Shown here: piece by piece, positions 4,844 through 42,623 of the stretch
Numbering within the stretch: position 1 is the stretch's first letter
Layout: each line of letters begins with the position of its first letter
Source of the DNA: Clostridiales bacterium
GTDB lineage: Bacteria; Bacillota; Clostridia; Lachnospirales; JAQSXR01
Reading direction: 5' to 3'
Assembly (NCBI GenBank): GCA_029256575.1
Contig: JAQSXR010000003.1
Location: forward strand, 248,001 to 312,000
Length of the DNA: 64,000 nt
Translations under genes and position numbers: made by a program
Notes under the pieces: model-generated
Database searches by the model: none
What the model was told of the DNA's origin: nothing
Seen by the model: only the letters and a program-made list of their open reading frames with translations

Positions 4844-5134
4844 TTATTCGTTAACTACTATTGGATGTACAGAAGCTTGCTTTTTGTCTCTGCCTTTTCT
4901 TTCAAATCTAAGAACTCCATCAACCAATGCGAATAATGTATCGTCTCCACCACGGCCTACATTAATACCTGGATGAATCTTTGTTCCACGTTGTCTAAAA
5001 AGAATATTTCCAGCTTTTACAAATTGTCCGTCTGCTCTCTTCGCACCTAAGCGCTTAGATTGAGAATCTCTACCATTTTTAGTAGAACCAACGCCCTTTT
5101 TATGAGCGAATAACTGAAGGTTCATCTTTAACAT
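4844..5134 (-). CDS. rpmA: 50S ribosomal protein L27 with Prp-cleaved N-terminal extension
   Basis: Ribosomal protein L27, whose N-terminus reaches the peptidyl-transferase centre. The sequence begins MLKMNLQLF then [15 protein letters not shown]. The [10 protein letters not shown] junction is the site cut by the cysteine protease Prp in Firmicutes, established for Staphylococcus aureus. The prp gene is immediately upstream, 4 bases away. Start ATG follows a strong GAGGAGGTG. 96 residues, a normal length. Confidence 0.97.
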
Positions 5135-5983: not shown

Positions 5984-7162
5984 TTATCTTACACTTTTAC
6001 CTAAATACTCCGCGATTGCTTCTACATCCTTATCTCCACGTCCAGATACAGTTACAATTATGATATCCTCTTTATCAAATTCTTTCGCACATTTAATTGC
6101 ATAAGCGAGTGCATGCGAACTTTCTATAGCAGGAATAATACCTTCCGTCTTAGATAAGGTTAATAGTGCATTAACAGCTTCATCATCTGTAATAGCTACA
6201 TATTCTGCTCTTCCTATTTCATTTAAATGTGCATGTTCTGGTCAAACACCTGGATAATCAAGTCCTGGTGAGATTGAATAAACCGGTGCAACCTCTTTGT
6301 TCTCATCCAATACACAAAGTGTTTTCATACCATGTATTACAGTTGTTTCACCAAGGGTTATAGTAGCTGCATGCATTTTGGTATCAAGTCCTTTTCCAGC
6401 TGCTTCTGCTCCGATTAATCGAACATCTTTATCATCTATATATTCTGCAAAAGAACCAATTGCATTACTTCCACCACCAACACAAGCTATTATTGCATTT
6501 GGAAGACGACCTTCTTTTTTCAGAATCTGTGCTTTTGATTCTTGACTAATAATTCTTTGGAACTCTTTTACGATCGTAGGGTATGGATGAGGGCCAACAG
6601 CAGAACCTAATACATAGAAAGTATCTTCTGCATGTTCAATCCAATAAACCAATGCCTCATCAACTGCTTCCTTAAGCGTTTGTGTTCCTGATAAAGCAGC
6701 CACTACCTTTGATCCTAGCATTTCCATTCGAAACACATTTAATGCTTGTCGATGCATATCTTCTTTTCCCATAAAAACAATGCATTCCATATTCAGAAGC
6801 GCTGCGATAGTAGCGGTTGCAACTCCGTGTTGGCCGGCTCCTGTTTCTGCTACTACTTTTTTCTTACCCATTCTCTTTGCTAAAAGCATTTGACCTAATA
6901 CGTTATTAAGCTTATGGGCACCTGTATGATTTAAATCTTCTCTTTTTAGATAAATCTTTGCTCCACCACAATATTCGGTAAAACGTTCAGCCAGATACAA
7001 CGGTGTTTCTCTTCCTGCATATTCCGTTAAATAATACATATACTCTTTTCTAAAATCTTCATCATCTTTGTACGTTACAAACGCATCTTCCAATTCCTTT
7101 AATACCAACGCCAAATTCTCTGGAACATAAGCTCCACCAAAACTACCAAATGTTTGTTTCAT
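5984..7162 (-). pseudogene. trpB: Tryptophan synthase beta chain, interrupted by an in-frame TGA
   Basis: TrpB condenses indole with serine using pyridoxal phosphate. Start [15 protein letters not shown]; the PLP lysine is in GAHKLNN and the phosphate loop in VGGGSNAIG. The ORF track ends at 6242 after GLDYPGV, where the family has GLDYPGVGPEH. Here the Gly codon GGA reads TGA, and the same frame continues as [15 protein letters not shown] to [20 protein letters not shown] and a TAA at 5984, giving 392 codons, the usual size. The first 306 residues lack the C-terminal part that contacts the cofactor, so the product is probably inactive. A Trp T-box precedes it and no trpA follows, so it is a stand-alone, tRNA-Trp-regulated copy. 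A sequencing error is possible. Confidence 0.85.
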
Positions 7163-7225: not shown

Positions 7226-7492
7226 AACAAAAAACGCCCATCCTTAGATATAATCTAAGGACAGGCGTATTATATACCTGCGGTACCACCTTAATTGTCG
7301 TAATGACCTCTCTCACAGAATGCCTACACATTCCTGCTCTATAACGTGAGCGTACGTTGCTAAATACTTGGGTTTCCCTGTTCATCAGCACCCTCAAAGG
7401 TCCATTTGTCCATTTCGTTTACTATTAGGTTCCCAGCAGCCCTAACTCTCTGTAAGTTCGTGAATGGTTTTATTTCCTTATCAATGGTTTAC
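7226..7492 (-). promoter_or_regulatory. T-box leader (Trp specifier) upstream of trpB
   Basis: On the minus strand this leader has the AGAGAG stem I signature, a GAAATGGAC segment supplying a UGG (Trp) specifier, the T-box proper AATTAAGGTGGTACCGCAGG (about 7276–7299) and a terminator hairpin (CGCC…TCCTTAGAT…ATCTAAGGA…GGCG then TTTTTT, 7226–7268). Uncharged tRNA-Trp would stabilise the antiterminator and allow trpB transcription. The 69-residue ORF on this strand (7188–7397) is a shadow of the RNA. Confidence 0.9.
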
Positions 7493-7498
7493 TTCTAT

Positions 7499-32734: not shown

Positions 32735-32817
32735 GCAGGTGTGGCGGAATGGCAGACGCATCAGACTCAAAATCTGACGAGTTCACGCTCGTGTGGGTTC
32801 GAGTCCCACCACCTGCA
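32735..32817 (+). tRNA. tRNA-Leu (CAA anticodon)
   Basis: 83 bases. Acceptor arms GCAGGTG / CACCTGC pair 7 of 7 with discriminator A. The anticodon loop CTCAAAA between TCAGA and TCTGA gives CAA, reading UUG. A long variable arm CGAGTTCACGCTCG marks class II tRNA, and the T arm GTGGGTTCGAGTCCCAC is canonical. The 3' CCA is not encoded. The prophage integrase gene lies just past its 3' end, so this gene is the likely attB. Confidence 0.95.
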
Positions 32818-32901
32818 TTAGTGTTTACAAGGGTTTCAGAATTTGTCGAGGATTCTGGGATTCTTATTTTTTTGTCATCTAAAAAATATCTAAAAAATGA
32901 A

Positions 32902-34044
32902 TTAATTCGCATTAACCTCTAATACACCTCCCATTCTATCAGCCATATTAACTTTTGCTTCATATTGCAAATGTGAATATATATTTGAAGTTGTACTAAT
33001 ATCGGAATGGCCAAGCCATTCTTGAATCTCTTTAAGTGAAAATCCTAGGTTGAGCAATATACTTGCTGATGAATGACGCAAATCATGAAATCGTATATGT
33101 GGCATATTATTAGCTTCTAGTATCGTCTTAAATGAATGAGATATATAATCAGGCTTGAAAGGTTTTCCATTCTCCCATTTACATACATAATCATTATCGA
33201 TATAGCTATTTCCATAGAATAACTTATTTTCACATTGTTCTTTTTTTAGTTTTTTTAGATAAATTTTCATTGAATTATCTAGCGGTAATGTTCTATAACT
33301 AGAACTTGTTTTAGTAGTCTCGTCCTCAAAACTTTTACCACCTACAGAAACAACTGTATTATTAATAACAATTTTATTTTCTTTAAAACAAATAGCACTC
33401 CATTTTAGTCCTAAAACCTCTGATCTCCTTAATCCATAATAACCTGATAATCTAATCACAGCTTTAATCGGATGTCCCTTTGATATATCAAACAGTTTAT
33501 TTAGTTGGCTCATATCAAAGTATTTAGCAATATACTTTTGCTTTTTAGGTAGAATGACATAATCAGACGGATTTTTATTAATTAACCCGCACATTACAGC
33601 GTAATCTAAAGCTTTGTGTATATTTGCATGTCGTTTAGATATTGTGTTGCCAGACATACCTTTTTCATTAAATAAGTGATTATAATATTCTTGTATTTGC
33701 ATATTATTAAGATCAAACAGTTTAATCCTTTTAGCCTTAAAATAAGGTACAATATCTCTCTCTATTACAACTGCATATGAATTATAAGTATTTTCTTTTA
33801 CAGATGGCTTCATAGATTTTAACCACGATATTATGAATTCTGAAAACAACATATCGTTTGTACCTAGCATATCTTTATCATCATACTTCTGCAAATATTC
33901 CTTTAATACCTCTGAAGCTTTCTTCTTGTTTCCCTTAACTTCAAGCCCAGTTGAAATCCACTTTGTTTTCCATTTACCATTTTCATCTTTAAAACTTAAA
34001 ACAATTGAATACTTCCCATTCTTTTCATGTAGACTTCCTGTCAT
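32902..34044 (-). CDS. int: Phage tyrosine integrase
   Basis: 380 residues. N-terminal arm-binding part (1–60), SAM-like core-binding domain (65–160), then the catalytic domain with the first Arg in GLRRSEVLGLKW, HDLRH (HxxR) near residue 321, and Tyr 356 in IYSHLQ with LGHSDISTT before it. All catalytic residues are present. It adjoins the tRNA-Leu 3' end and probably integrates there. It is transcribed toward the tRNA. Confidence 0.95.
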   Translation of the reverse strand: MTGSLHEKNGKYSIVLSFKDENGKWKTKWISTGLEVKGNKKKASEVLKEYLQKYDDKDMLGTNDMLFSEFIISWLKSMKPSVKENTYNSYAVVIERDIVPYFKAKRIKLFDLNNMQIQEYYNHLFNEKGMSGNTISKRHANIHKALDYAVMCGLINKNPSDYVILPKKQKYIAKYFDMSQLNKLFDISKGHPIKAVIRLSGYYGLRRSEVLGLKWSAICFKENKIVINNTVVSVGGKSFEDETTKTSSSYRTLPLDNSMKIYLKKLKKEQCENKLFYGNSYIDNDYVCKWENGKPFKPDYISHSFKTILEANNMPHIRFHDLRHSSASILLNLGFSLKEIQEWLGHSDISTTSNIYSHLQYEAKVNMADRMGGVLEVNAN

Positions 34045-41277: not shown

Positions 41278-41305
41278 GTTAATCACCTACCTTTATTTTT
41301 GGGCA

Positions 41306-41333
41306 TTAAAAAAGCACCCTTGAATAGAAGAGT
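41306..41333 (-). terminator. Intrinsic terminator at the end of the noncoding region
   Basis: GCACTCTTCTATTCAAGGGTGC hairpin followed by TTTTTTAATGC on the minus strand, 30 bases before the next gene. Confidence 0.85.
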
Positions 41334-41582
41334 GCTTGGTTGTTGTTTTATATTGAGTTGTTAGTATTAAAAAAGTATTTGAATATAGAACAATAGCACC
41401 CCCTATTACTAGGAATGCTACGTTCTCCGTATGGCACAACACAAACCTTAACGTGCTAGTTTGTGAGACCAAGATAAATATAATGAGTCTTTTTTTGAAA
41501 CATATTGTTTCGTTAGATACACTATATCATAATGAGGGGTTATTATAGTAAGTGCTATAAAGATATGTATATTTACATAACA
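41334..41582 (-). other. Hairpin-rich noncoding stretch, possible part of a large structured RNA
   Basis: No ORF. On the minus strand it holds the stem CACAAAC…GTTTGTG (41440–41465), a TACG-GAGAA-CGTA hairpin, the CCTA…TAGG pair around 41400 and a CACT…AGTG stem with ATAAT…ATTAT inside (about 41520–41555). GC is locally higher than in the flanks, which is common for structured RNA in AT-rich genomes. Confidence 0.45.
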
Positions 41583-41722
41583 AAAGCCCACATATTAAGT
41601 GAGCTAATTTTTGTATAGTTTTAATATAATTCAAAAATTAATATAATTAATTGCCCAAGCACGATGACAATACATGTCACTTACCTAGATAATGGCGTGT
41701 AATCAGGACTTACTGTTAACTT
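41583..41722 (-). ncRNA. Candidate small RNA with own promoter and terminator
   Basis: About 140 bases from a predicted start at 41722 to the hairpin AGCTCAC…GTGGGCT then TTTTGTT (41583–41608). It contains the TGACA…TGTCA hairpin. Its 5' part is a diverged copy of the segment at 41790–41871. No coding frame with a ribosome-binding site. Confidence 0.5.
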
Positions 41723-41728
41723 AAATTA

Positions 41729-41757
41729 AGTATACAACTGTTTTGTAGCATTGTCAA
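41729..41757 (-). promoter_or_regulatory. Consensus SigA promoter inside the noncoding region
   Basis: TTGACA (41757–41752), exactly 17 bases, TATACT (41734–41729) on the minus strand. It is one of the best promoters in the window and has no gene directly after it. Confidence 0.8.
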
Positions 41758-41789
41758 CTTTTTTATTTGTAAAAATTATATTTATATAA

Positions 41790-41871
41790 CACCGATTACC
41801 TTAACTATGACACTAACACATAGTGCTTACCAAGACAATAGCATACATAAGGATTTATTGTCGGTGCTATA
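41790..41871 (-). repeat. Diverged second copy of the small-RNA 5' segment
   Basis: On the minus strand ACAATAAATCCTTATG…TTGGTAAG parallels ACAGTAAGTCCTGATT…TAGGTAAG in 41655–41718, about 130 bases apart. This copy can fold into a three-way junction: closing stem CACCGA/TCGGTG, with ACTATG/CATAGT and GACAATA/TATTGTC arms. Confidence 0.5.
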
Positions 41872-41897
41872 ATATAATATACGAAATTATAAATATT

Positions 41898-42590
41898 CTA
41901 TGCATATATTGGAGGATATTTAAACACCTTTATTAAATATCCATTATCTATCATATACTGAATTTCAGATTCATATACCCCATCTGTCATAATATTAGAA
42001 TAAAATAGATTTGAAAATACATCGGATAACTGAATAATTTTATTATTACTCGAATCAAAATATTGTATTTGGATATTATCTGCAATATTTCTCCCTGTAA
42101 TAAATTCAGTCATAAAAAGTTCCTCAAGGTTATATCTTGCATCTGTTTTAACATTTCGTTCATCGACTTGAATATACCATACTCTATCGGTTAATACAGA
42201 AATATTATTTAAATGTTCAAAAGCTAATTTTAAAACATAATTAAATGCCCTTGCTTTATTTTTATAAAAATTATTTTCTGCTTTTTCATTATCAATATTT
42301 ATATAAAGTAACTTAAACCAATCATTTTTGCAAAAATAATCAACAAATTTACGTTTCATTTCTGATGTAAAACAACATCCCTTTAATTCTACGAAATCAT
42401 TATCTTTAAACATTTTAGAATCTATATCAATAGATTTTAATTCGATTAAATATTTAGCAACAAACCTCTTATAAATCTTTTTTAATTTATCAGGATTATC
42501 TGTTAGCAATAAGCAAATAATGAATGACTTATTTCTTTTTAATGTTGTCTCATGTGTCATACTCCCTGATTCATCTATATAAATATACAT
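41898..42590 (-). CDS. DUF3800 domain protein (RNase H-like fold), accessory gene
   Basis: 230 residues with the DUF3800 signature: MYIYIDESGSMT at the start (catalytic-type Asp-Glu), VDERNVKTDARYNLEE in the middle and IIQLSDVFSNLFY near the end. These proteins have an RNase H-like fold and are frequent in mobile elements; their biochemical role is not settled. The ATG at 42590 follows GGGAGGGATAGC. It has its own extended -10 promoter, sits inside the tail module, and is followed by a long noncoding region, features of a phage accessory (moron) gene. Confidence 0.8.
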   Translation of the reverse strand: MYIYIDESGSMTHETTLKRNKSFIICLLLTDNPDKLKKIYKRFVAKYLIELKSIDIDSKMFKDNDFVELKGCCFTSEMKRKFVDYFCKNDWFKLLYINIDNEKAENNFYKNKARAFNYVLKLAFEHLNNISVLTDRVWYIQVDERNVKTDARYNLEELFMTEFITGRNIADNIQIQYFDSSNNKIIQLSDVFSNLFYSNIMTDGVYESEIQYMIDNGYLIKVFKYPPIYA

Positions 42591-42623
42591 GCTATCCCTC
42601 CCCATTATTAATACTCTTGTAGT

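Follow-up and report, generated by a model that had tools for sequence, protein, structure and literature searches.

The window, i.e., the whole stretch of 64,000 nucleotides analyzed here, includes a Firmicutes prophage, in the late region of which a DUF3800 gene is followed by an intergenic stretch (41287-41897) that extends from its stop (41898) to the next, structural gene (41286-40645). With the genes running along the minus strand, this places the stretch on the 3' side of DUF3800. What does it encode: one large phage RNA, or smaller elements belonging to the gene that precedes it? A preliminary description had opted for the former, i.e., a hairpin-rich, noncoding unit of about 575 nt with a perfect promoter and two terminators, likened in its size and setting to the ornate phage RNAs GOLLD and ROOL.

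The stretch downstream of DUF3800

The noncoding and structured character of the stretch is borne out. Its sole open reading frame of at least 50 codons is an unconvincing, TTG-initiated one of 59 aa (41472-41293, minus strand), and both strands fold better than shuffled versions (20 shuffles each): -134.4 versus -109.9 kcal/mol for the minus strand (z -3.75), with z -5.5 for the plus strand. Terminator-like sites are likewise in excess (three against 0.3 expected). Sigma-70-like sites in general are about as numerous as this AT-rich DNA would produce by chance (15 versus 13.7 expected); one of them is nevertheless credible, as a promoter is conserved at the same position in relatives of the RNA that it precedes.

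However, the stretch is not a single ornate RNA of 575 nt: its DUF3800-proximal half consists of two copies of one RNA of approximately 80 nt, with a terminator. Copy A (41788..41868, minus strand; 77.7 bits and E 1.1e-16 over 190 kb with R1, the covariance model described below) directly follows the DUF3800 stop, its closing helix P1 pairing 41868-41861 with 41795-41788; our scan recovered neither a promoter nor a terminator of its own. Copy B (41643..41723, minus strand; 91.8 bits, E 2.2e-20), whose fold is backed by covariation in 57 relatives, comprises P1 (41723-41716 with 41650-41643), P2 (around 41709-41696 with 41663-41653), P4 (41695-41694 with 41685-41684) and P3 (41680-41675 with 41669-41664), all on the minus strand. 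With nhmmer, the extents of the two copies are 41872-41788 (42 bits) and 41729-41644 (67 bits), respectively. Copy B is headed by a promoter (41729..41757, minus strand; TTGACA-17-TATACT), which is that of the preliminary description, though at 11 of 12 consensus positions it is near-consensus rather than perfect, and is followed by an intrinsic terminator (41585..41605, minus strand; AGCTCACTTAATATGTGGGCT then TTTGTT), the first of the two terminators noted earlier. The conserved unit, present twice, thus measures about 80 nt, or about 140 nt with its terminator, and a search of the whole host genome with R1 returned the two window copies only.

The remainder (41341..41580, minus strand) is also rich in hairpins and holds a weak promoter-like site (41571-41542, minus strand) and a terminator-like hairpin (41421-41393, minus strand); beyond it, a strong intrinsic terminator found by the terminator scan (41312..41337, minus strand) precedes the next structural gene. 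While the predicted fold of 41341-41560 on the minus strand is somewhat more stable than those of shuffled versions (z -2.9), searches for relatives of 41287-41580 gave only chance or terminator matches of 20-50 nt, and blastn against phage DNA gave weak matches only (best E 0.03), e.g., to a terminator-like patch in the C. difficile phage AR1074-1. A third RNA copy, suspected by eye at 41480-41393, was matched neither by nhmmer nor by R1.

These observations bear on the resemblance to GOLLD and ROOL. Like the window RNA, those are structured RNAs proposed for phage regions, and the size, setting and folding energy of the stretch would suit such an RNA; however, they extend over hundreds of nucleotides in one fold, whereas here the conserved unit is short and repeated, a promoter and a terminator lie inside the stretch, and its outer half is without relatives. 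Further, an Rfam scan of the stretch matched neither, whether the gathering score or a limit of E 5 was applied. Hence, we regard a single large RNA of this kind as very improbable. No Rfam family was matched at its cut-off, and matches at E up to 5, such as Phe_leader, Trp_leader and U6atac (E 2-4), were dismissed as chance.

Regarding the wider setting, the prophage adjoins a tRNA-Leu gene (32735-32817, plus strand), beside which lies an integrase gene (32902-34044, minus strand); this site (window 32735-34044) is likely the prophage attachment site. Viral scans for a cassette-free relative of the prophage, with an empty site, returned none. Outside the prophage, the window also carries a T-box leader (7254-7493, minus strand; RF00230, 102.8 bits).

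Linkage between the RNA and DUF3800 genes

Relatives of the DUF3800 protein were gathered with a small protein alignment, yielding 80 loci from GTDB genomes as well as 33 on viral contigs; the RNA was located by an iterated nhmmer profile and by the covariance model R1. The iterated profile placed the RNA beside DUF3800 in 76 of the 80 genome loci, every time on the coding strand: as one copy downstream (56), two copies downstream (15), one upstream (4) or one on either side (1). Among the four exceptions, one contig ends 3 nt past the gene, one reading frame is truncated, and two loci (L066 and L110) have intact-looking genes with no detectable RNA. The reverse searches agree: R1 matched four of 398 genomes of the phylum, with all eight matches adjoining DUF3800; it gave 37 matches, one or two each, in 32 carrier genomes; and an RNA-side search of viral contigs found DUF3800 alongside in 12 of 13, one being the window's own phage. 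An RNA search in the family of G279 gave no match and is uninformative.

The other neighbors of the pair vary widely, from phage terminase and portal or tail genes to uvrC, FTHFS and a response regulator, and the pair itself is patchily distributed, occurring on many chromosomes of Firmicutes as well as in prophages and satellite phages. The preliminary description was right in that the late module of this Firmicutes prophage does hold a structured RNA. The comparison with GOLLD and ROOL, however, is not supported: what the RNA goes with is DUF3800, not the late module, and the pair is also found between chromosomal housekeeping genes.

The signals around the RNA depend on its position. Of 77 copies that are single or second in a pair, 73 have a promoter of the form TTGAC-N16-18-TANNNT just upstream (0.3 expected) and 63 are followed by a terminator (1.5 expected), whereas neither is seen at any of the 15 first copies of tandem pairs. 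From this division, copy A is most likely part of the DUF3800 message and copy B a separate gene.

This arrangement prompts us to weigh whether the RNA acts chiefly in cis, with the DUF3800 protein regulating itself by way of a site for binding or processing in its own message. The same-strand downstream copy in 72 of 76 loci is compatible with such a role, as is the bare state of the tandem first copies; indeed, tight linkage by itself would also be expected from an RNA that solely regulates its own message. However, the near-consensus promoters and terminators of the single and second copies, together with four loci where the RNA lies solely upstream of the gene, speak against it, and we consider a mainly cis-acting role improbable. 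The recurrence of the pair in so many chromosomes, prophages and satellite phages makes it very probable that gene and RNA work together.

Fold of the RNA and its described relatives

The preliminary description had named covariation among homologues as a check on its proposed RNA, and the 80-nt unit passes it strongly. In an alignment of 57 dereplicated sequences, RNAalifold, supplied with no structure, predicted 25 pairs, and compensatory changes occur in 22 of these; a hand-drawn structure of 26 pairs, nearly identical to the former, has such changes in 23. In the latter structure paired cells make up 93.9%, compared with 72.9% in shuffles, with 378 double changes versus 124 and a covariation score of 0.654 versus 0.250, and sliding the partners by 1-3 columns lowers pairing to 25-41%. 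Frequent G-U pairs (42 of 57 sequences at columns 76-94) identify the minus strand as the RNA. The fold begins with the closing helix P1, followed by an internal loop in which a near-invariant ACAGUAAGUC faces GCAAU; further inward, a two-part helix P2 encloses the two-pair P4, a UAA linker and the P3 hairpin with its UGUGU loop, and in some members P4 holds a variable extra hairpin. Most genome loci show the motif CCAACAGTAAGTCCT...GTGCCGTTATCTAGGTAAGCGTCATGTGTTGGCGTCACT...AGGCAATTGGT beside DUF3800. Taken together, comparative sequence evidence shows that the fold is conserved and that the RNA is tied to DUF3800.

RNA motifs associated with DUF3800 (DUF3800-I, DUF3800-II and later ones) were reportedly described by Weinberg et al. 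in 2017 (doi 10.1093/nar/gkx699). DUF3800-I (RF02969) is the sole plausible relative among the Rfam families. Like the window RNA, it adjoins a DUF3800 gene and displays a two-part helix, a small P4 hairpin, a UAAG linker and a P3 hairpin with a UGU loop, followed by a terminator; unlike it, DUF3800-I lacks a closing P1 with the ACAGUAAGUC/GCAAU loop. The two have a core fold in common, but the scores fall far below the family cut-off of 44.2 bits (19.4 at L078 and 18.4 at L091, with nothing reported for the window). At these two loci, cmscan at E up to 10 gave no DUF3800 family other than DUF3800-I, and tblastn with proteins of the window's DUF3800 group did not detect the two DUF3800-I proteins encountered, the neighbor proteins of that family having been named from the family name and their DESG/DDSG start. 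With the RNA beside DUF3800 in 76 of 80 loci and 23 of 26 pairs covarying, we classify the window RNA as a variant of the DUF3800-associated RNAs on the basis of comparison with DUF3800-I alone of the published motifs. It defines a well-delimited subfamily marked by near one-to-one nuclease-RNA pairing, a covariation-backed fold, a separate promoter and the occurrence of tandem pairs, of which one copy most likely belongs to the message.

The carriers of the pair also include Listeria phages (PSA and LM 4-11-1) and Streptococcus satellite phages (Javan304 and Javan555), in which a divergent DUF3800, about 23-31% identical, is followed by a divergent RNA. The latter has the common layout, with the GUAAG linker and P3 hairpin, but GUAAUUC where the window group has GUAAGUC. 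P2, P4 and P3 are recovered when this set is folded alone, and 10 of its 15 pairs show compensation; the RNA of LM 4-11-1 scores 39.5 bits with R1, which misses most members. In LM 4-11-1 (L006), two near-identical tRNA genes (4856-4929 and 6867-6940) flank DUF3800, the RNA and a cold-shock gene (about 6248), much as if they bounded a small integrated element; the tRNA at 4856-4929 overlaps the upstream edge of DUF3800.

Candidate functions of the nuclease-RNA pair

The DUF3800 gene of the window (41898..42605, minus strand) belongs to PF12686 (E 9.4e-10; 39.8 bits against a gathering score of 21 bits), and translation probably begins at the ATG at 42590: GGGGAGGG lies shortly before this codon, and the resulting N-terminus agrees with the start MxIYIDESG of its relatives. 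An AlphaFold model (pLDDT 91.7), made from an alignment of window proteins and proteins from related loci only, is closest in fold to RNase H2/HII (Z 11.6 for 8yjz and 11.5 for 1eke; rmsd 2.8-3.1 over 161-165 residues), with Argonaute/Piwi proteins below these (Z at most 8.4). The N-terminal Asp-Glu (D11-E12), Asp148 and Asp195 are invariant. Hence, an RNase HII-like fold and a nuclease role are predicted for DUF3800, in agreement with a published comment that assigns DUF3800 an RNase H fold and a link to putative ncRNAs (PMC10910872) and with the occurrence of DUF3800 in some CRISPR loci (PMC12669027). A sequence profile against the PDB gave chance DnaJ matches only, and the window protein was not matched by PADLOC. 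The presence of RNAs near DUF3800 genes has reportedly been on record since 2017; in the literature we found no paper that gives them a function.

Briefly, we advance the following mechanism. The locus would be a self-contained, two-part prophage cassette comprising an RNase HII-like nuclease and a dedicated small RNA, supplied twice: the 3' end of the DUF3800 message would carry copy A and then copy B, while the promoter of the latter would also yield a separate transcript of it, about 140 nt long. The protein may bind the RNA via its invariant unpaired parts, i.e., ACAGUAAGUC, UCUAGGUAAG and the UGUGU loop; that the RNA is a dedicated binding partner of DUF3800 is a reading to which we give somewhat better than even credence. 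Most likely, steady production of the RNA would keep the nuclease bound and silent, as a type III antitoxin RNA does, until an invading phage upsets the balance and the nuclease acts, whereas the RNA copy in the message might allow the protein to limit its own expression.

An antitoxin-like inhibitor is our first choice for the function of the RNA, tentatively held by analogy and at a little under even chances. As in type III toxin-antitoxin systems (ToxIN; PMC5772629, PMC8860590), a nuclease gene is joined to a small structured RNA on mobile elements; however, the nuclease is of a different fold. In known type III systems the antitoxin RNA precedes the toxin gene and is built of pseudoknot repeats in tandem. 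The RNA described here instead forms one fold, occurs in one or two copies that lie mostly downstream, and has its own promoter at the second copy, differences that count against the analogy, just as L066 and L110, with intact-looking genes and no detectable RNA, count against a strict antitoxin model.

The same strict pairing and invariant fold would also befit a cofactor that activates or steers the nuclease as an RNA-dependent effector, the more so as some nucleases of the RNase H superfamily are RNA-dependent and DUF3800 figures in some CRISPR loci (PMC10910872; PMC12669027). However, the RNA offers no free, variable, guide-like segment, its variable parts being helices or a short insert and its ends being closed by P1; a guide-RNA reading was rejected for that absence, and we find a cofactor role in general unlikely, if well short of negligible. 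As the protein has only about 230 residues and the RNA 80 nt, the choice between inhibitor, cofactor and regulator is directly testable.

The strict pairing, unrelated neighbors, patchy distribution and excess of broken genes fit a mobile nuclease-RNA module: a broken DUF3800 with an intact RNA (about five loci, some of which may be assembly errors) is commoner than an intact gene without RNA (two). One might further conjecture, as a bold and rather doubtful extension, an unrecognized class of mobile nuclease-plus-RNA immunity or toxin-antitoxin systems, in which a dedicated RNA of about 80 nt controls an RNase HII-like protein. Such systems would occur on Firmicutes chromosomes as well as in prophages and satellite phages, and some phages would counter them with a decoy consisting of the RNA alone.

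A candidate for such a decoy is found on the viral contig IMGVR_UViG_3300024486_000654 (L150, 2-94, minus strand), where an RNA core without P1 or promoter directly follows a tail-tube gene; no DUF3800 precedes it, and relatives of this phage, which seemingly reads TGA as Trp, have no such RNA there. It could be a decoy or, since the contig ends at the RNA, a contig-end effect with a DUF3800 gene following. Among the loci with intact RNA, DUF3800 is broken by a stop, frameshift or truncation in L082 (4001-4687), L115, L117, L118 and L120, the stop in L082 lying inside the DESG motif. Finally, the gap between terminase and portal genes is a frequent settling place of selfish genes, and in L078, L142, L146 and L151 the DUF3800-RNA pair sits between these two phage genes, on the opposite strand.
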